Below, in pieces: positions 3,418-19,361 of a DNA stretch of 64,000 nucleotides. Every line of letters starts with the position of its first letter. The first letter of the stretch is position 1. A model generated the notes under the pieces. That model saw only the letters and a program-made list of their open reading frames with translations. It did no database searches and was not told the origin of the DNA. The stretch is from Bacteroidota bacterium. GTDB lineage: Bacteria; Bacteroidota; Bacteroidia; 2-12-FULL-35-15. A program made the position numbers and the translations under genes. Where the stretch lies: NCBI GenBank assembly GCA_021323165.1, contig JAJTCJ010000027.1, forward strand, positions 1-64,000, given 5' to 3'.

Positions 3418-3667
3418 TGTAAATCGGTTTAATACCGATCACAGCGATTTCCAAAACTTATACCGAAATTTTTAGAGACTTCTGAAAGTATTACTTCTAA
3501 AGGGATTGGATGAGTTTACAAAACAAATCGTTTTAAATCGGATCAGGGGAATTTGTTCCACAGAGCATTGGAATATTGAATCACTATCAGAATTATTATT
3601 ATGAGAATAAGGTTTCGCGGGCACTTAAACTTTTATTAAAAGGAATATGGATAAACACATAAATTAC

Positions 3668-3675
3668 TATATTTG
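3668..3675 (+). promoter_or_regulatory. Bacteroidota -7 box (TATATTTG) upstream of the tRNA fragment
   Basis: TAnnTTTG consensus inside the direct repeat, ~40 bp upstream of the tRNA 5' end. Confidence 0.6.
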
Positions 3676-3714
3676 CAGCCTAAAATTGCTCTTGATGTTA
3701 TATGAAGACAATTT

Positions 3715-3750
3715 GGGCCTATAGCTCATTCGGTTAGAGCAACAGACTCA
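3715..3750 (+). pseudogene. tRNA-Met(CAT)-like 5' half only (acceptor, D-arm, anticodon 5' strand, loop to C34A35)
   Basis: GGGCCTA TA GCTC ATTCGGTTA GAGC A ACAGA CTCA; no complementary 3' half follows. Confidence 0.8.
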
Positions 3751-4186
3751 ACAAAATTCCTTCATCTGCAAAACTGTAATATCCTTCTTGAGTCAGGATA
3801 ATATGATCCAGTAAGGGTATTTCCATAATTCGTCCAGCCTCTTTTATAATTTTTGTAATTCTAAGATCTGCTTCTGATGGTTTTAGATTGCCTGAAGGAT
3901 GGTTATGTGCAAGCATAATAGATGATGCATGAGCTTTCAATGCTGTTTGAAAAACCACTTTTGTGTCAACCACAGTCCCAGACATTCCTCCATGTGAAAT
4001 TTTGCTGTAACCTAATACCTTATTAGCACGATTTAAAATCATAAGGTACATTTCTTCAATGTATTCCATTTTATTACTCCAAACTGATCTGAATTGTGTT
4101 TCAGCGTCTTTAGAGGTTAATACCTTAGGCAAAGCAGATAGTTTAACCTTAGGGCTATAATTGATTGATATTTCTGATAGTTCCAT
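3734..4186 (-). CDS. RadC-family JAB-domain (MPN+) protein
   Basis: HNHPSGNLKPSEADLRITK, LLDHIILTQEGYYSFADEGIL. Stop codon lies inside the tRNA fragment. Confidence 0.9.
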   Translation of the reverse strand: MELSEISINYSPKVKLSALPKVLTSKDAETQFRSVWSNKMEYIEEMYLMILNRANKVLGYSKISHGGMSGTVVDTKVVFQTALKAHASSIMLAHNHPSGNLKPSEADLRITKIIKEAGRIMEIPLLDHIILTQEGYYSFADEGILLSLLL

Positions 4187-4256: not shown

Positions 4257-4532
4257 TCAATTGAAGGATGTATGAGAGCAGGTTGGAATTGAGAGTATCA
4301 TAAAGTAATGATGATAATATCCCTTGTCTTGGATGATGTAAACAAGCTTGAATTGCTTATCCATTTTCACTTGAATTACAGTGATTTCCTGACCAATGGA
4401 GTAAAGTCCTACTGCTCTAATGCAAGACACCTTAAATGGGCAGAAAAGCCGGTAGATCCCAGTTTTATTAGCTACTAAAATTGAGTTGTTTGAGCATATC
4501 CTGCTTAGCTCAATTAATTTGTTTTTCTCCAT
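4257..4532 (-). CDS. Hypothetical protein (91 aa)
   Basis: ORF in the same orientation as its neighbours. Confidence 0.45.
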   Translation of the reverse strand: MEKNKLIELSRICSNNSILVANKTGIYRLFCPFKVSCIRAVGLYSIGQEITVIQVKMDKQFKLVYIIQDKGYYHHYFMILSIPTCSHTSFN

Positions 4533-4609: not shown

Positions 4610-4948
4610 TTACGCTACTTCCCCATGAAATACAGTTTCCTCCATATTGGCATTCTCAGCTACATACTCATAGCTGTGGTTCAATGTTGCTGTCTCATCA
4701 GTTCCTGGGATCTGATAAGTGTAAGCCTCACATTCAACTTTTTTAATCTCTCCAGGAAACCTAGTTCCTATAACAGATTTACAAGCTTGTTCATTTAATG
4801 TTGTTGTAATTGTGGCTTTCCTTGCGTGAGCATAGTACTTACCAGTTTGAGAAGACTTAATCATCTCTACTTGTCCTTGTAGTTCTAAGACCAAGAAATC
4901 ATCATTATTCTTGTTTTGTCTTTTCACATAATTGATTACTGTTACCAT
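4610..4948 (-). CDS. Hypothetical island protein (112 aa)
   Basis: MVTVINYVKRQNKNNDDFLVLELQGQVEMIKSSQTGKYYAHARKATITTTL...; coherent ORF. Confidence 0.55.
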   Translation of the reverse strand: MVTVINYVKRQNKNNDDFLVLELQGQVEMIKSSQTGKYYAHARKATITTTLNEQACKSVIGTRFPGEIKKVECEAYTYQIPGTDETATLNHSYEYVAENANMEETVFHGEVA

Positions 4949-6541: not shown

Positions 6542-6778
6542 ATGGCTACAGCAGAAGAAAAGCTCAAAAAGCAGATTGGTAACAGAATTAAGAACTTAAG
6601 GCTTCAGGCAGGATATACCAGCCAAGAAGCTTTTGCTTATGATGCTAATATTCCAAGAGCGCAATATGGCAGATATGAATCTGGAAGGTCAAATATCACT
6701 ATTGCCAGCCTGCTTAAAATCACATCTTTTCATAAAATTACTTTTGCCGAATTCTTCAAGGAAGGGTTTGGTAACTAG
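6542..6778 (+). CDS. XRE-family helix-turn-helix regulator
   Basis: IGNRIKNLRLQAGYTSQEAFAYDANIPRAQYGRYESGRSNITIASLLKI. Confidence 0.9.
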   Translation: MATAEEKLKKQIGNRIKNLRLQAGYTSQEAFAYDANIPRAQYGRYESGRSNITIASLLKITSFHKITFAEFFKEGFGN

Positions 6779-7227: not shown

Positions 7228-8562
7228 GTGAAAAAAATCTGGGTATTACTAAATAAAAGTTTGAAAATATTAAAACCAATTAATTTAAATTATGAGACAG
7301 CAATCAAAAAATACAATCCTAAGTACTACGAAAAGTATGCCTGGCTAATTCATTTGATTTTGCTAAGAAATTTTATATGTGATGATACATTTAATGGATT
7401 TGTAAAACTGCAGTCATGCATACTCAAAGAATATCTAGGGGATAAGTTTTATAAAAAGGTGGTAACCGCCTTGGTTGACAACGATATTATTGAAGTAGAT
7501 TCTTCTTACTCTCCCGGTGAATTCAGCAAATCGTACAGATTGACTAAGATTTACACGGAGTATCCTCCTGTGTGGATTGCATTTTCAACTAGGAAGGCAA
7601 AAGGGTACTTTGAAAAATATAAAAGTTTTGAATGCTCTAATCATAATAAGTTTAATGATCCGGACATGGTAAATGTTATTAATCAAAATATAAAGAAGAT
7701 TAATATTGATAGTTCTTTAGCAGTAGAAAAGGTAGAATTACTACTCTCCGATGGTGTAATTAAAAGCGAAGCCAGAAGTTCATACTTTTATTTTATTGAT
7801 GCTATTTCATCAGGAGATTTGTTTTTATATCATTCACAAAAAACGGGCAGATTGTACCATACCATAGTAGGCTGTCCAAGATCATTGAGGGGTTTTCTTC
7901 ATGTTAATGAAGAGAAGTTATTTCAAGTTGATGTTGCTAACTGCCAACCAATGATATTTGTGAAAATGCTTCAGGAATATTTAAAAGTAATGAGGACAGC
8001 AGTTAAATATGACAGGAAAAGCATAGGTAGTGGTTATCTATTCCTTTCATATATACATGAAAGAACTATATATACTCCCTATGTGTCTTCTTTTTTGTAT
8101 CCACCGGATGTTAACCTTTACATCGAGTTAACAAAAACTGGTGGCTTCTATGAATTTTTAATGAGGAAGTTCAAAGTAAAAGAATCTGATAGAGAAACAT
8201 TTAAAAAAGACTTTTTTGCCCGGGTGTTTTATTCTAAACTGAAAGGAATGGAAAAGTATAGATATGGAAAATTATTCAAGCTGCATTTTCCAACTGTTTA
8301 TAAGGCCATTGTTTGGGGAAAAAGAAGTGGTCATCATCTTCTCCCTACCAAAATGCAAAGTATTGAAAGTAATATTGTTATTCAAAAGGTGTGTGCAAGA
8401 ATTTGTAAAGAGCATGATAATTCAGAAATACCTTTTTTCATCCCAGCACATGATGCAATTATCTGTTTTAAGGAGAAACTAGCATATATAGAAAAGATTA
8501 TGTTAGAGGAGTTCACAAGCAATATGGGATTCACACCTACTGTTAGACAGAAACACTTCTAA
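7228..8562 (+). CDS. Putative compact family A (PolI-like) polymerase palm/fingers-domain protein (444 aa, GTG start)
   Basis: TGRL...; motif A-like LFQVDVANCQPMIF (D235); O-helix-like R322-x3-K326-x3-F330-x3-F334; then F-x2-HFPTVYKAI; MQSIESNIVIQK (Q377); motif C-like IPAHDAIICFKE (H408-D409). Confidence 0.65.
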   Translation: MKKIWVLLNKSLKILKPINLNYETAIKKYNPKYYEKYAWLIHLILLRNFICDDTFNGFVKLQSCILKEYLGDKFYKKVVTALVDNDIIEVDSSYSPGEFSKSYRLTKIYTEYPPVWIAFSTRKAKGYFEKYKSFECSNHNKFNDPDMVNVINQNIKKINIDSSLAVEKVELLLSDGVIKSEARSSYFYFIDAISSGDLFLYHSQKTGRLYHTIVGCPRSLRGFLHVNEEKLFQVDVANCQPMIFVKMLQEYLKVMRTAVKYDRKSIGSGYLFLSYIHERTIYTPYVSSFLYPPDVNLYIELTKTGGFYEFLMRKFKVKESDRETFKKDFFARVFYSKLKGMEKYRYGKLFKLHFPTVYKAIVWGKRSGHHLLPTKMQSIESNIVIQKVCARICKEHDNSEIPFFIPAHDAIICFKEKLAYIEKIMLEEFTSNMGFTPTVRQKHF

Positions 8563-8578
8563 TCATTCAAGATCTACA

Positions 8579-8599
8579 TACTCCCTATGTGGTGCATAT
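8579..8599 (+). repeat. Island boundary motif copy 1: TACTCCCTATGTGGTGCATAT
   Basis: Direct match to copies at 13173, 14324 and 14611. Confidence 0.85.
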
Positions 8600-8602
8600 A
8601 TT

Positions 8603-10471
8603 CTAACCAGCGGGATTAAGTTCTTGCTGGTTATTATTCTTTTTAATAAATTTAAATATGTTCGCAGTTAGCTCTTTTGTCTCAGGTGTTAGGTGATTAA
8701 TATCAGTCATAACTGCTACTGCTTTCTTTGAAAAACCCACTTTGTCTTTGATAGTTCCACTTTCAGCAGCGTAAGTTTTTGATAAGCCAGCAACATTTTT
8801 ATCTATGAAAGCACCCAATTTCGCATTAACATACTTAGATCTCTTTATTTTAGAAAAATCAAGGTTTAATCCATTATAACTTTCATAAGACCTTATAACA
8901 TTTATTACCACTTCTTCCGAGAGAAGATTTTCAATTTCATGAGATTTAAGACAGTAATACTGATCACCTAAATTGATTTTGAGTTTTTCTTGCCTTTCCA
9001 TTTTTTTGGACATGGATCCATTTTTATTCAAACCAGCACCATCTTGATCAGTTATTAAAAACATTTTTCCACACAATGCTTTCACATTTATATTGGGATG
9101 TAACTCATCAGTGTTTTCTAAAAAAGACCAGTGAGTTATATTCCCACCACCATACTCTAAAAAAGAAAAATGAATATCTTCTAGAAATTTTTGGTTTTGT
9201 GTATGTTGATACAGTTCAAGAAATTTCCTAATATAAATCCTATCTGTAATCCCTTCAACCCAAATCGTACAATTAGTTAAGTAAACTGAGGAATTTCTTA
9301 CTCCTAATAATTCTAAAAGATTTCTATTGGTGTTTTCAACATTATCAATTATGAACTCTTGACCTCTCTTTTGAAATGCGTACACAGAAATTTTCTTGAA
9401 ATCCAATGTCATATCTAAGAAATGGTTAGAATGGGTTGTAAGATAAAACTGAAAATGTTTAAATTCTGGAAGCATTAATGTTTCAAGAAATATGCGCTGG
9501 AAACCAGGATGAAGATAAGTATCAGGCTCTTCAAAAAATACGTTCAAATTTTCATTTTGATTAAAGAATAATGGGTATGTTAGAATGATTAAGGCTTGCA
9601 CACCTTCTCCTAACATATATATTGGACGTTCATCTTCTCCTATCTTAACATGAACTGCATTATCATCTATATGTGGAATAATATTGAAATCTTGATTAAT
9701 GAAAAAATTTCGTTTTAAAAAATCTTCAAATTCCCTGATTTTTTGTCTTTTTTCACCAGAACCTAAAAGCAATTTTTTGACATCATCATACAAGCTTAAC
9801 CCAGTGTAAATATTCTCATGAAAACTCTTCTCATCAGGGAAGTAGTCTTTGATAGTCCGGAATTTATAGCTATCAAAATCAACTAAGGTCCTATCCTGGC
9901 TGTAATTAGTATTCCTTAAGCCTCTTAAGGTAGGAATGTAAATATTCCTTTTTTGAAAAGTCTCATCGGTAATGTTTTTTAATTCATCTAGTTGCACAAG
10001 ATATATTGGAATCGTAGTCCTAAAGAACTCAGTTATAGCTTTCATTATTTCAGGACTGTGACTCCATCCTGTTTTAGAAACAACTCTCCCACCAGTTATG
10101 CTCGCAAATTGTTGAATCCTGTTAAATATTTCACTCAGTTCACTTCCTTTACTCCAAAATTTAATTTCAGGTATATTTACATTTACACCTTCAATTTCTG
10201 ATATTTTTTTATCGTTATAAAAATTATATATTACTTCTTTAAGTTCATTAATAACTCTGTTTATTTTTTCTATATCTATTGATTTACAGTTAAACTCAGT
10301 GTTCTTGAGAGAAAATAGCGTTCTTAAAAATCTGCTTTTCCCAGTATTATTAGGTCCTATAAGGATGTTTACATTGGAAAGATTGGACAATACTTTGGTT
10401 TTGGGCTGAACAGAATAATCTGCGAATTCTACCCTATCTATACTAATAGAACTATACTGGTGGTCTTTCAT
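8603..10471 (-). CDS. OLD-type ATP-dependent nuclease (ABC-like ATPase + C-terminal TOPRIM)
   Basis: Walker A NILIGPNNTGKSRFL; NVFFEEPDTYLHPGFQ; TTHSNHFLD; TOPRIM WVEGITDRIYIRKFL and MFLITDQDGAG. Confidence 0.87.
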   Translation of the reverse strand: MKDHQYSSISIDRVEFADYSVQPKTKVLSNLSNVNILIGPNNTGKSRFLRTLFSLKNTEFNCKSIDIEKINRVINELKEVIYNFYNDKKISEIEGVNVNIPEIKFWSKGSELSEIFNRIQQFASITGGRVVSKTGWSHSPEIMKAITEFFRTTIPIYLVQLDELKNITDETFQKRNIYIPTLRGLRNTNYSQDRTLVDFDSYKFRTIKDYFPDEKSFHENIYTGLSLYDDVKKLLLGSGEKRQKIREFEDFLKRNFFINQDFNIIPHIDDNAVHVKIGEDERPIYMLGEGVQALIILTYPLFFNQNENLNVFFEEPDTYLHPGFQRIFLETLMLPEFKHFQFYLTTHSNHFLDMTLDFKKISVYAFQKRGQEFIIDNVENTNRNLLELLGVRNSSVYLTNCTIWVEGITDRIYIRKFLELYQHTQNQKFLEDIHFSFLEYGGGNITHWSFLENTDELHPNINVKALCGKMFLITDQDGAGLNKNGSMSKKMERQEKLKINLGDQYYCLKSHEIENLLSEEVVINVIRSYESYNGLNLDFSKIKRSKYVNAKLGAFIDKNVAGLSKTYAAESGTIKDKVGFSKKAVAVMTDINHLTPETKELTANIFKFIKKNNNQQELNPAG

Positions 10472-13172: not shown

Positions 13173-13189
13173 TACTCCCTATGTGGTGA
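13173..13189 (+). repeat. Island boundary motif copy 2: TACTCCCTATGTGGTGA
   Basis: Intergenic exact match to the 16-nt core. Confidence 0.85.
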
Positions 13190-13287: not shown

Positions 13288-14013
13288 ATGTGTAAAAAGA
13301 AGGGAAATCAGATGGAATTAAATTTCATCGAAGATAACTATCAGGCTAAAATTACTGATCCTAAAAAATATAAGAAGTATTATGCTGCTTCAGGATATGA
13401 TCATCCATCATGGCCTGTAATCCCATCTGATGATCCATTTGGCATTGACATAAAAGACTGGGGACTAATACCTAGTTGGACAAAAAACTCTCAGGATGCA
13501 AAAACCTTTTCTGACAATAACCTGAATGCTAGAGCTGAAACTGTATTTGAAAAACCAAGTTTTAGACATATAATCAGAAAGCAGAGATGCATTGTGCCCA
13601 TTTCAGGCTTCTTTGAGAGCAGACACATTGGTAAAGATAAAATCCCTTATTATATTTTCCCTAAGGATGGTGCTTGCTTTTCTGTAGCGGGAATTTATGA
13701 TACCTGGATAAATGAAGTTGGTGAGCCGGTACATACTTATACTATATTAACTTGTGATTCAAACCCTTTGTTATCCAAGATCCACAATTCAAAACTCAGA
13801 ATGCCTTTAATCCTGCCAAAAGTATCTGAAAAGGTATATCTGGATTCAAGTATTTCTGATGAGATGTTAAAATCACTTTTTATTCCATATGATGAAAGCT
13901 TGATGGATGCAAGAACTGTTTCAAAACTTATTCATTCCCCAAAGAAGGATCTGGTTAATGTTCCAGAAGTTCTTTCTTCTGTGGAATATCCTGAATTAGC
14001 TTTTTACGATTAA
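13288..14013 (+). CDS. SOS-response-associated peptidase (SRAP / YedK / HMCES family)
   Basis: Starts M-C (catalytic Cys2); WGLIPSW; NARAETVFEKPSFR; RCIVPISGFFE; IHNSKLRMPLIL. Confidence 0.9.
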   Translation: MCKKKGNQMELNFIEDNYQAKITDPKKYKKYYAASGYDHPSWPVIPSDDPFGIDIKDWGLIPSWTKNSQDAKTFSDNNLNARAETVFEKPSFRHIIRKQRCIVPISGFFESRHIGKDKIPYYIFPKDGACFSVAGIYDTWINEVGEPVHTYTILTCDSNPLLSKIHNSKLRMPLILPKVSEKVYLDSSISDEMLKSLFIPYDESLMDARTVSKLIHSPKKDLVNVPEVLSSVEYPELAFYD

Positions 14014-14628: not shown

Positions 14629-16647
14629 CTACTTTAAAAGCTTTTCAATCTCCATCTGCCATTTTGGAAATCCATCATTTGCTTCTGAATAATCATGTCG
14701 GATTCTGTGGAATTCATGATCTGTGGTTTCTATATATACAGTTTTCTTCCCTTCTTTTATCGAAATAATCAAAGCTTGAATGGCCTGGTAATTTTCAGCT
14801 AAATTAAACAACTCCTTTTTAATGGGCCATACATAAGTTGCTTCTGAGGTAGTAAGAGTTTCCCATACTGCATAAAAAAAACCTGATCGTTCTATCAGAA
14901 ACACAAAAGAAAATGGTTTGAATAAAAAACGAATTTTTTCTAAATTGGATTGTTTGGATGCTAAATACTTTAAATGATTTTTATGTTTAGTACTTTTTAT
15001 CTCCATTAGATCCTCTAGTAGTCCGTTATCATCTAAATAAAATTCATTCAACTTACTCACTCCTGCATTTTCAAAGAATTGTCTTTGAGTAAGAGAATCA
15101 TTGGATTCGTTTTTACCGTTTAATGCTTTTTTCAGAAAGGAAATTCTTACCTGACTAATAATTGTGGGATTAATTTTGGAAATTTCTGGTGAAGTTGCTG
15201 AATAGCTTTTCACTAAGTGTCCAGAAGTCTCAACAGTCAAGTCTACTTTGATCTGCTTAACTCCTAAGGCTTTTGGAAAGTAATTTTTTACAAATTCAAA
15301 TTCTTTTTTCAGATAAGGATTAAAAATTCTGAATAACAATTCCTTTCTTATCCTTGAGTATTTGTATTTAAAGCAGACTTCTCCATCTTTGAATTCTAAA
15401 TCAGAAAAACTAATATAAACTGTATCAGATATAGTGATTATCTTCTCTTCGGACAAAGAGTTATCTTTTATTGTGGCTTTAGAAATTTCACTCTTATTGT
15501 CTTGCACTTCTTGTGGATAAACAGTTTCAGCTGTTTGAAGTCCTTTAACAGACCTATCCAAGGCATCTCTATCAGTTCTTTCGAAAGAAATACTGTTTAT
15601 ATCTTTCAGAGTTTCTAAATCCTCAGATTGTTCTTGAGTAAAGTCCATTATTCCTTTGTGAAACGATAAAATTTGAGCCTTCAAAACACCAGTATTAGGG
15701 TGAAATTTAATAACTCGTATTAACCAAGACATTGGTTGTGGAAAAGGGTTTATATAAGAAGGCAGTTCTAAGTCTGATAATCTTAGAATTTTTTCTCTTC
15801 CAAGATAAACCTTGTTAGATCGAAAGTTTATAAAATAAGTATGGTTTATGTTAGAATTTTTGAGCTCTTTTTCTTTTAATACTGGATTAGATTTACTTGT
15901 ACTGAACTCATCTTTCTTAACGAGGATTCTTGGTCTTTTAGATTTAGATATACTTTTTTTTTCTTCTTTAACTACTTTCAGAAAAAGAGGCTTGTTATTA
16001 ACAGATGTTTTCTTTTCCTTTTTCACTATTGGCAGTTTCCACGCCTTAGGATGGTTTTTAGCAGTTTTTGCTTCTCTAAGGTTTTCTCTTTCTATATGGT
16101 ATTCTTTCTCCACTAATTGATACTGGAGTGGAGACAATTTTGTCATAGGCATAATAGAAAGTCTTTCTCCTTTAGTTTGAAGAAACTGAACAATTGTTGC
16201 AATACTTATATTAAATTCTTTAGCAACATGACTTAATTTTAACATTTTTGACTCCTCATTGGATAAATGTGACGGAGTTTTCAGGTTTAGTAAAACATTT
16301 TCATCAATTTGTGAATTTTTTAGTTGAGCTTCTTTTAGGAGTTCATATATTTCATGACTCACTTTTGTCATTGGATTATTTTCAATAACATATCCCTTCC
16401 TTTTCAAATAATCAGTAATTGAACTTATTTTTATTCCAAATTCTTTGGCAATACTACTTAGGCGATGTTTCCTCTCCGATATTTTCACTTCTGATATTTT
16501 CAATAATTGAAAAAGGTGATCAGGTATCTCGGTTGAGTGGGAGTTAACCATTTTATGCCCCCTTTTTCTTAAGAACTGAATAATTATTACAGGACTTACC
16601 TTTAATTCAGTTGCAACATCTTTTAATAAATGCACTTTGAAATTCAT
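14629..16647 (-). CDS. Island protein with three tandem IF2_N-like N-terminal domains and a large uncharacterised C-terminal region (672 aa)
   Basis: Repeats LKDVATELKVSPVIIIQFLRKRGHKM..., LSSIAKEFGIKISSITDYLKRKGYVIENNPMTKVSHEIYELL, LSHVAKEFNISIATIVQFLQTKGERLSIMPMTKLSPLQYQLV. Confidence 0.75.
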   Translation of the reverse strand: MNFKVHLLKDVATELKVSPVIIIQFLRKRGHKMVNSHSTEIPDHLFQLLKISEVKISERKHRLSSIAKEFGIKISSITDYLKRKGYVIENNPMTKVSHEIYELLKEAQLKNSQIDENVLLNLKTPSHLSNEESKMLKLSHVAKEFNISIATIVQFLQTKGERLSIMPMTKLSPLQYQLVEKEYHIERENLREAKTAKNHPKAWKLPIVKKEKKTSVNNKPLFLKVVKEEKKSISKSKRPRILVKKDEFSTSKSNPVLKEKELKNSNINHTYFINFRSNKVYLGREKILRLSDLELPSYINPFPQPMSWLIRVIKFHPNTGVLKAQILSFHKGIMDFTQEQSEDLETLKDINSISFERTDRDALDRSVKGLQTAETVYPQEVQDNKSEISKATIKDNSLSEEKIITISDTVYISFSDLEFKDGEVCFKYKYSRIRKELLFRIFNPYLKKEFEFVKNYFPKALGVKQIKVDLTVETSGHLVKSYSATSPEISKINPTIISQVRISFLKKALNGKNESNDSLTQRQFFENAGVSKLNEFYLDDNGLLEDLMEIKSTKHKNHLKYLASKQSNLEKIRFLFKPFSFVFLIERSGFFYAVWETLTTSEATYVWPIKKELFNLAENYQAIQALIISIKEGKKTVYIETTDHEFHRIRHDYSEANDGFPKWQMEIEKLLK

Positions 16648-16696: not shown

Positions 16697-17950
16697 TCAC
16701 TGGGTTTCCCCAGTGACTCTTTCATTCATCTCATCAATTACTTCAGACCCATAATTATCAAGGTAAATACCTGTAACCCTGTTACCGTATTCATGTCCTA
16801 GAGCTTCAGCGATTTGGTCTTTGGGATAACCTAAAGATTTAGCAATATTAGCCCACGAATATCTGGCAACGTATGTTGTTAGCTCAAATGGCATGTTACA
16901 TTTTATTCCAATCCTTTGAAGAGCATCATTAACAGACCTTATTCTTAACCCTGTCACCTTTCTATAATCTTTGGGATCTACATTGTCAAACCTGAAATAA
17001 GAAATGAGGTACTTGGTTCCATCATTAATGTAAAAATTAATCAACCTTTGGGCTTCAGGAATTATTTTGATACTATACATTTTACCAGTTTTTCTCCTCT
17101 TATACATTATTCTGTCACCGTGAATATTCTCAGGCTTTAAAAGCACCAAATCAAGGAATGAGATGCCTATTAAATAAAATATCAGGAAGAAGATGTTTCT
17201 GCTATGCCACTGAACAGTATTCTCCTTTAATGGATAGGCTATTAAATTCTTTAAATGTTCCTTTTTAATAGCACGATTAACCGTTTTTTCTGTTTTGATT
17301 TTAAAATCATAAAAAGGATAACAATCCCTAGAGATCAATTTCCGCTTAATTGCCAGATTGAGAATTGCTCTAATTTCCCGGAGGTACATAGCAATGGTAT
17401 TCTTGCTCACACCTTCATCCAGCAATTGAATGTTAAAATCTGAAATAACATTGTAGCTAATCTGGTCAAGAGAGATTTCCTTCCCTGTGAATCCAATCAG
17501 CCTTTTCATTGCTCCCTCATAAGCTTCAGCATTGCCAAATCTCTTTTGCTTTTTAAGATTTTCTATCTCCAGTAAGGCAAAATTCTTAAAGGTGATTTTG
17601 TCCTCATTAGGCTTATTTAAAAGCACTTTAACAAGACTGACAACACTTGAGTCTCCATCGGTTTTATCTGCTCCTAAAAGGCGCTTTTCCAGCTCAAATA
17701 GCTTGTTTTTTAGTAGCAGGTTAAGGCTTTTGTGCTCTGGATGAATTTTGTTGACTTTTCCCTTGGAATTATCCCACTCTTTTGGGAATAATTTTACACA
17801 GGAATCTATGGAAGTACTTCGACTATTGGAAGTTACTCTAAAAATTATTGGTTGTCTGCCATCATTGTATTTACGCCTTTTGTCAATTGTTAACTTTATA
17901 GTAGCCATTTCCTTTGTGGTTATGGCTAAAACCTTCATTTTAACATGCAA
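16697..17950 (-). CDS. Tyrosine recombinase / site-specific integrase (phage integrase, SAM-like N-terminal)
   Basis: FELTTYVARYSWANIAKSLGYPKDQIAEALGHEYGNRVTGIYLDNY; located next to the right direct repeat. Confidence 0.93.
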   Translation of the reverse strand: MHVKMKVLAITTKEMATIKLTIDKRRKYNDGRQPIIFRVTSNSRSTSIDSCVKLFPKEWDNSKGKVNKIHPEHKSLNLLLKNKLFELEKRLLGADKTDGDSSVVSLVKVLLNKPNEDKITFKNFALLEIENLKKQKRFGNAEAYEGAMKRLIGFTGKEISLDQISYNVISDFNIQLLDEGVSKNTIAMYLREIRAILNLAIKRKLISRDCYPFYDFKIKTEKTVNRAIKKEHLKNLIAYPLKENTVQWHSRNIFFLIFYLIGISFLDLVLLKPENIHGDRIMYKRRKTGKMYSIKIIPEAQRLINFYINDGTKYLISYFRFDNVDPKDYRKVTGLRIRSVNDALQRIGIKCNMPFELTTYVARYSWANIAKSLGYPKDQIAEALGHEYGNRVTGIYLDNYGSEVIDEMNERVTGETQ

Positions 17951-18019
17951 GTTATATGCAAGCTGAGGGGATAGAATCCTGATTTTCCAGAATTAATCTT
18001 TTATAAAAAGGAATATAGT

Positions 18020-18118
18020 TAAACACATAAATTACTATATTTGCAGCCTAAAATTGCTCTTGATGTTATATGAAGACAATTTGGGCCTATAGCTCATTCG
18101 GTTAGAGCAACAGACTCA
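18020..18118 (+). repeat. Right direct repeat (attR-proximal), identical to 3652..3750; imperfect similarity starts at 17998
   Basis: 99/99 identity by reading. Confidence 0.97.
18083..18118 (+). pseudogene. Second tRNA-Met(CAT)-like 5' half
   Basis: Same 36 nt as 3715..3750; followed directly by a terminator hairpin instead of a 3' half. Confidence 0.8.
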
Positions 18119-18156
18119 CAAAAAAAGGATATCACAGTGTGATATCCTTTTTTATT
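18119..18156 (+). terminator. Strong hairpin terminator (AAAAAAAGGATATCACAGTGTGATATCCTTTTTT)
   Basis: Near-perfect palindrome with T-run. Confidence 0.88.
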
Positions 18157-19091: not shown

Positions 19092-19361
19092 TTAACGAAC
19101 ACTTTCAGATTTTGCAGGGATTTTCTTTCTCTTTTTCTTTTTAAATAACCAGCCATGCTGTGCATCTGTTTCCATCTGGTTTGATTTCTTTTCTGCTTTC
19201 GTTTCTCTTTTACGTCTTTCCTTTTCACGCTTTTTCTCAGATTTTATTTCAGCTCCTGCCCGACCGTAGTTATTGCCGGAAGTGGTCTGCGCATTTGTAG
19301 AAAGCGAAAGAATACTAGTAAGTAATAGTGGTATGCAATAGAGTTTAATTAGCTTTTTCAT
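19092..19361 (-). CDS. Secreted basic hypothetical protein (89 aa)
   Basis: Signal peptide followed by K/R/E-rich region. Confidence 0.55.
   Translation of the reverse strand: MKKLIKLYCIPLLLTSILSLSTNAQTTSGNNYGRAGAEIKSEKKREKERRKRETKAEKKSNQMETDAQHGWLFKKKKRKKIPAKSESVR

Follow-up and report, generated by a model that had tools for sequence, protein, structure and literature searches.

The polymerase gene and its island

We analyzed a 64,000-nt stretch of contig JAJTCJ010000027.1, referred to here as the window, whose positions serve as coordinates throughout. An open reading frame at 7228-8562 (+ strand), with a GTG start, encodes a 444-aa protein identified as a compact, divergent family A (PolA-like) polymerase; the position and length of this frame and all residues quoted from it in the initial annotation were as stated there. 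An alternative TTG start at 7261, where the nearest relative (L020) begins in the alignment, would give a protein of 433 aa. In single-sequence searches, no match to the polymerase was found in Pfam, NCBIfam, PADLOC, or PDB (the last by phmmer), with no PF00476 match at E <= 1 in the Pfam scan, and PF00476 did not appear among the 25 families most often matched across 55 members of the polymerase family. In PHROGs, the unnamed family phrog_4756 was the only match of the window polymerase and also matched 19 of its 55 relatives. The host genome encodes its own PolI besides the island polymerase.

The gene lies in a 14.4-kb interval enclosed by a 132-nt direct repeat, 95% identical between its copies at 3625-3756 and 17993-18124 (+ strand). 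In the left att repeat, an upstream region is followed by the first (5') half of a tRNA-Met(CAT) gene, with the repeat stopping within the anticodon loop; the right att repeat likewise comprises the upstream region and the tRNA-Met 5' half. An intact tRNA-Met was identified in same-genus relatives, and at locus L148 an intact tRNA-Met lies between the orthologues of the HAD gene to the left of the island (2066-2725) and of the genes at 19092 and 19454 to its right, representing the empty site. The 3' half of the tRNA was sought in the window and in the assembly and was not found, which probably reflects a gap in the assembly or a second element in tandem. In 2 relatives (G404 and G405), the tRNA has the reverse orientation with respect to the HAD gene. 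The 14.4-kb element bounded by the repeats contains a tyrosine integrase (16697-17950, - strand; PF13102 E 8e-18, PF17293 E 4.5e-10), and the polymerase is encoded on this island, as had been proposed from the sequence.

Other genes of the element include, on the - strand, a RadC-like JAB protein (3734-4186; PF04002 E 1.7e-38) found in the same place in L020 (1227-1781, by eye), a 91-aa element gene (4257-4532) with a similar L020 protein by eye and no Pfam match, and a 112-aa conserved element gene (4610-4948) with homologues in 10 relative loci and no Pfam match. The 112-aa protein was considered as a candidate OB/SSB-like partner of the polymerase; this is a guess, for which no credible PDB or PHROG match gave support. 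Upstream of the polymerase lies an HTH_3 (Cro/C1-type) regulator (6542-6778, + strand; PF01381 E 1.7e-8), matched by eye to L020 9269-9505. The cargo comprises an AAA/OLD-like ATPase (8603-10471, - strand; PF13175 E 6e-15), possibly a defence gene given its AriA/NsnB/Old/GajA-like PADLOC matches, and an SRAP (HMCES-like) protein (13288-14013, + strand; PF02586 E 8e-47). A 672-aa protein at 14629-16647, carrying several N-terminal IF2_N/HTH-like repeats, adjoins the integrase. The island proteins searched with Pfam included no recognizable helicase, primase, SSB, or relaxase.

A 16-nt repeat, TACTCCCTATGTGGTG, was identified at 8579-8594, with further copies at 13173, 14324, and 14611; another copy, at 8073, is partial and falls within the polymerase gene. 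All copies are on the + strand, the 5 found compare with 0.23 expected in the window, and no copy with <=1 mismatch occurs elsewhere in the genome. These repeats are a possible element-specific binding site.

Conserved residues and predicted fold of the polymerase family

Of 396 Bacteroidota genomes, 10 yielded relatives of the polymerase in whole-protein searches, which also identified relatives in huge phages (595-735 kb) and on 1 Hymenobacter plasmid and a more distant homologue in a Vibrio phage. Scans of a genome collection and a viral collection added 50 and 14 loci, respectively, and the added loci include 2 planctomycete genomes, 1 planctomycete MAG, and 1 MAG bearing the label Rhizobium, the polymerase of which clusters with those of Bacteroidota. 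With a profile search, the polymerase was found in 15 of the 396 Bacteroidota genomes, a sporadic distribution, and in 0 of the 20 nearest relatives.

We assessed conservation in 2 alignments, A1 with 15 members, all from whole-protein searches, and A4 with 55 members, largely gathered with a motif-A pattern, whose identity to the window polymerase is 20-36%. Residues R208, D235, Q240, P241, Y308, K326, F350, P355, Q377, E380, and D409 are invariant in A1, and D235, N238, Q240, Y308, K326, E380, H408, and D409 are invariant in A4. Because the motif-A pattern was used for collection, the A4 invariance across D235-P241 is partly imposed; the invariance of D235, Q240, and P241 was seen independently in A1. 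Departures in motif A were noted in 2 divergent homologues outside both alignments (DMRNCHY in L011 and DFKSIHP in L016).

The conserved residues follow the order of PolI. R208 (7849-7851), counterpart of the PolI TGR arginine, is Arg in 54 of 55 A4 members and is followed by the putative catalytic Asp of motif A, D235 (7930-7932; 55 of 55), and by Q240 (7945-7947; Gln in 55 of 55) at the position of the PolI E710 steric gate. The O-helix, R322-x3-K326-x3-F330-x3-F334 (8191-8229), has Lys at position 326 (8203-8205) in all 55 members, Arg or Lys at position 322 (47 and 8 members, respectively), and Phe, Leu, or Ile, never Tyr, at position 334. The counterpart of the PolI QGTAAD helix, Q377..E380 (8356-8367), is conserved in 54 of 55 and 55 of 55 members, and motif C, H408-D409 (8449-8454, with D409 at 8452-8454), in 55 of 55. 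As these motifs are shared within a protein family, they go beyond chance, and dN/dS values of 0.06-0.23 in close polymerase pairs indicate purifying selection.

The window polymerase therefore has neither the PolI Glu at the steric gate, where it carries Gln, nor the O-helix Tyr, with Y766 replaced by Phe, Leu, or Ile across the family. Mutant work on T7 RNAP and PolI indicates that an O-helix position without Tyr combined with a bulky gate points away from rNTP selection. With Phe, Leu, or Ile at position 334 and the bulky Q240 forming a gate without a tyrosine hydroxyl, we infer that the polymerase would favor dNTPs.

An AlphaFold model of the window polymerase (55 sequences) reached pLDDT 88 and pTM 0.84 and has the element order of the PolI palm and fingers. 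It comprises a beta-hairpin with R208 before the palm, a strand (232-236) with D235 at its end, a helix (239-261), and fingers with a helix (319-334) bearing R322 and K326; these are followed by a helix (371-395) bearing Q377/E380 and a beta-hairpin (404-413) bearing H408-D409. In a Foldseek search against PDB, family A DNA polymerases made up all 50 best matches (prob 0.97-1.00, best E 9.5e-5), including apicoplast DNAP, Pol theta, Klenow, T7 DNAP, Bst, and Taq, with modest TM-scores to the solved polymerases (at most 0.41 when scaled by query length, with long rmsd). Among viral models, the top matches were a 409-aa protein (TM 0.67/0.72) and a marine phage 'Putative DNA polymerase I' (0.69/0.75), followed by phage proteins of ~430 aa, Barba31A included.

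The N-terminal domain (aa 13-118; 7264-7581, + strand) has a predicted winged-helix fold. When aa 1-128 were folded alone, AlphaFold gave pLDDT 86.7, and Foldseek retrieved mainly winged-helix DNA-binding domains, including TubR, CodY, and the N-domains of plasmid Rep initiators, with weak scores (E >= 0.028). We claim the fold class alone, because the hits are weak and many winged helices are among them; assignment as a specific initiator was rejected, the Rep initiator N-domains (4pt7, 5kbj) standing at E ~0.1 amid many winged helices.

Profile comparison by hhalign aligned the polymerase family with PolA at a score of 29.7, against 12-20 for reversed or unrelated controls, with TGR, motif A, RxxxK, Q, and HD in order. 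The family A assignment and the ordered motif series read from the single sequence are thus borne out by the fold search, with its match to a right-hand palm, by the confident model, and by the 55-member alignment. The suspicion that no exonuclease domain of usual size could be present also proved sound, as the model contains none. In the profile check suggested with that annotation, the PolA motifs aligned, PF00476 itself was not matched in Pfam, and the T7 RNAP profile matched over a short segment, considered below.

Recurrence of the polymerase in integrative elements

A tyrosine integrase was identified within <=10 kb of the polymerase in 35 of 50 genomic loci and within <=5 kb in 30 of 50, often no more than ~100 bp away. 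The host genome encodes 3 PF13102 integrases in 4.0 Mb, corresponding to a chance of ~1% per 5-kb neighborhood, a value that will differ in other genomes. Ten further elements of 5.4-14 kb were found in which direct repeats of at least 40 nt surround polymerase and integrase; most of these elements lie at a tRNA gene (Lys, Asp, Arg, Val, Asn, Ala, Ser, or Met). No such repeats were found in the 13 integrase-free loci or in 80 control intervals.

The two smallest elements, of 5.4 kb in L041 and 6.1 kb in L062, have recognizably in common only the integrase and the polymerase (by eye), with neither SRAP nor RadC present. Other elements carry more, with a type I restriction system lying between integrase and polymerase in L052 (by eye) and DUF3871 and an AAA_24 ATPase added in flavobacterial elements. 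Since relatives of the polymerase lie beside an integrase in many islands, the polymerase is probably the enzyme that copies such islands.

Several homologues were found in other settings. The homologue on the Hymenobacter plasmid was considered as proof of a sole replicase, a reading rejected because a replication initiation protein is annotated on that plasmid as well. L020 encodes a Rep_1 HUH-type replication protein (15264-16340; E 7.5e-14) just beyond the repeat-bounded element of the nearest polymerase relative. In Flavobacterium soyangense (L056, 9017-18904), the homologue lies directly upstream of Cas1/Cas2 look-alikes (by eye), with a Cas9-like gene downstream. A 686-aa homologue in Tenacibaculum (L037, 9989-12049) has a C-terminal tail resembling a GIY-YIG/NUMOD homing endonuclease, and GIY-YIG/NUMOD families were matched by 1 alignment member. 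In huge-phage contigs L072 (7995-10465), L017, L070, and L071, a conserved gene directly follows the compact polymerase gene; in L072, it encodes a 429-aa PF00476 DNA polymerase A (E 1.5e-21), placing 2 family A genes in tandem.

Described relatives and proposed function

We compared the polymerase with those described from mobile elements and viruses. Its closest described relatives are the phage divPolA2 proteins by homology and the transposon-virus polymerases (TV-Pol) by resemblance. Yutin et al. (2024, PMC11348598) described divPolA2 from phages that include Barbavirus and the ICP1-like group, and a profile of this set (ICP1 ORF100, Barba31A, and others) aligned with the window family over the palm and fingers only (hhalign prob 98.4, E 6e-15), a profile match by which the 2 groups are homologous. 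Both are compact and without an exonuclease domain, with an unrecognized N-terminal domain where the known thumb would stand. In contrast to the window family, divPolA2 is encoded by lytic phages alongside a regular DNAP, has His or Trp where the window family has Gln, does not share the N-terminal domain, and forms a separate clade split off with support 100 on long branches. The conserved ORF100 of Vibrio phage ICP1 (HQ641347.1; locus L124, 5473-7140), a 'hypothetical protein', is one of the divPolA2 relatives of the family, and 2017 ICP1 isolates carry another homologue at a nearby place (L128, 559-1863).

TV-Pols, predicted primase-polymerases (Iyer, Abhiman, Aravind 2008, PMC2579912), resemble the window polymerase closely as analogues on the basis of their published description. 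They share the size (400-600 aa), the family A core with Arg hairpin, 2 Asp, and RxxxK, the lack of a nuclease, and residence in mobile elements that carry direct repeats together with an integrase or resolvase, and Bacteroidetes and planctomycete members are listed. They differ in being linked to a D5-like helicase or bearing an all-helical N-terminal domain, whereas here no helicase was recognized and a winged helix is predicted.

The SCCmec polymerase CcPol, a proven dNTP-using primase-polymerase when paired with MP, is likewise a family A enzyme of an integrative genomic island and requires this SSB-like partner (Bebel et al. 2020, PMC7581432); a survey of PolA-SSB pairs found them in Bacillota only (PMC10061031). 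CcPol is close to housekeeping PolI, retaining E710 and F762, whereas the window polymerase has Q240, and the CcPol element has serine recombinases and combines SSB partner and helicase in one operon, whereas the window island has a tyrosine integrase and no proven SSB partner. Pipolins (PMC7385651) are also bacterial integrative elements encoding their own DNA polymerase, but theirs (piPolB) is of family B, and the fold search for the window polymerase gave family A only. The bacterial PolA1, PolA2, and PolA3 groups (NAR 2026, PMC12926913) belong to family A too, but in the accessible part of that account none is described as a compact, exonuclease-free mobile-element polymerase, and divPolA and Bacteroidota are not mentioned there. 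Whether the subfamily had been characterized, a question raised by the initial annotation, can thus be answered in part: phage relatives (divPolA2) and analogues (TV-Pol, CcPol-MP) have been described, but no description of the integrase-linked Bacteroidota branch was found in the accessible literature, and this branch seems undescribed.

The initial annotation named replicase, repair, and primase-associated roles as inferences, and the genomic context favors element replication. We consider it fairly likely that the protein is an exonuclease-less, catalytically competent family A polymerase of a tyrosine-integrase element in the tRNA-Met gene and most likely copies the excised element. The integrase would excise the element as a circle, and the predicted N-terminal winged helix would bring the polymerase to DNA, possibly by binding an origin. 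The palm would then make element DNA, with D235 and D409 acting with 2 metals and R322/K326 holding the incoming nucleotide, and synthesis on the excised circle would precede re-integration or transfer. The polymerase may also make its own primers, which is plausible by analogy because TV-Pols are predicted primase-polymerases (PMC2579912) and CcPol-MP was shown to prime (PMC7581432). Against element replication stand the lack of a recognized helicase, primase, or SSB in the island, in contrast to the helicase association of TV-Pol and CcPol, the modest TM-scores, Gln for E710 and Phe, Leu, or Ile for Y766, the annotated initiator of the Hymenobacter plasmid, and the tRNA 3' half missing from the assembly.

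A more far-reaching version, which we regard as rather doubtful, is that small, widespread Bacteroidota elements (down to 5.4 kb) depend on one family A protein combining winged-helix origin recognition, priming, and synthesis, with no helicase or primase, as a family A counterpart of pipolins. The polymerase might instead be a repair or gap-filling enzyme, acting for example on integration gaps or in counter-defence repair, and not the element replicase. Such a role would fit the lack of a recognized helicase beside the polymerase in the island, the co-occurrence there of RadC and of SRAP, which is an abasic-site protein, the PF00476 PolA gene adjoining the huge-phage homologue in L072, and the proposal that divPolA2 is a repair DNAP in phages having another replicase (PMC11348598); it is nevertheless unlikely, as the minimal elements retain polymerase and integrase but not SRAP or RadC and the host already possesses PolI.

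We consider it quite improbable that the protein is a single-subunit (T7-like) RNA polymerase or an RNA-primer-making enzyme of the element, although RNAP was an option that Yutin et al. kept open in the case of divPolA2 (PMC11348598), PF00940 RNA_pol was weakly matched by 3 members (best 0.003), and a few members match PHROG RNA polymerases. The T7 RNAP profile gave a score of 38.4, but over 31 columns round motif C (HDS) only, and T7-like RNAP identity was rejected as the weak matches trace to this motif. No RNAP is among the 50 best PDB matches, there is no whole-palm profile match, and position 334, corresponding to the O-helix Tyr of T7 RNAP (Y639), is never Tyr, with a bulky Gln at the steric gate. 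That the protein keeps a polymerase fold but is catalytically dead or serves as a DNA-binding accessory, as the very divergent sequence and the change at both nucleotide-discrimination positions might suggest, is very improbable given that the catalytic Asp pair, RxxxK, and Q/E are invariant or nearly so at 20-30% identity and under purifying selection.

Replication of the element remains the most plausible role of the polymerase, given its recurrence beside the integrase, and phage divPolA2, of undecided function, is now linked to chromosomal integrative elements. Elements of 5-6 kb are small enough for tests in Flavobacterium or Bacteroides of element copying by a single polymerase. If the polymerase primes itself, it would add to CcPol-MP a second, independent type of family A primase encoded by an element.
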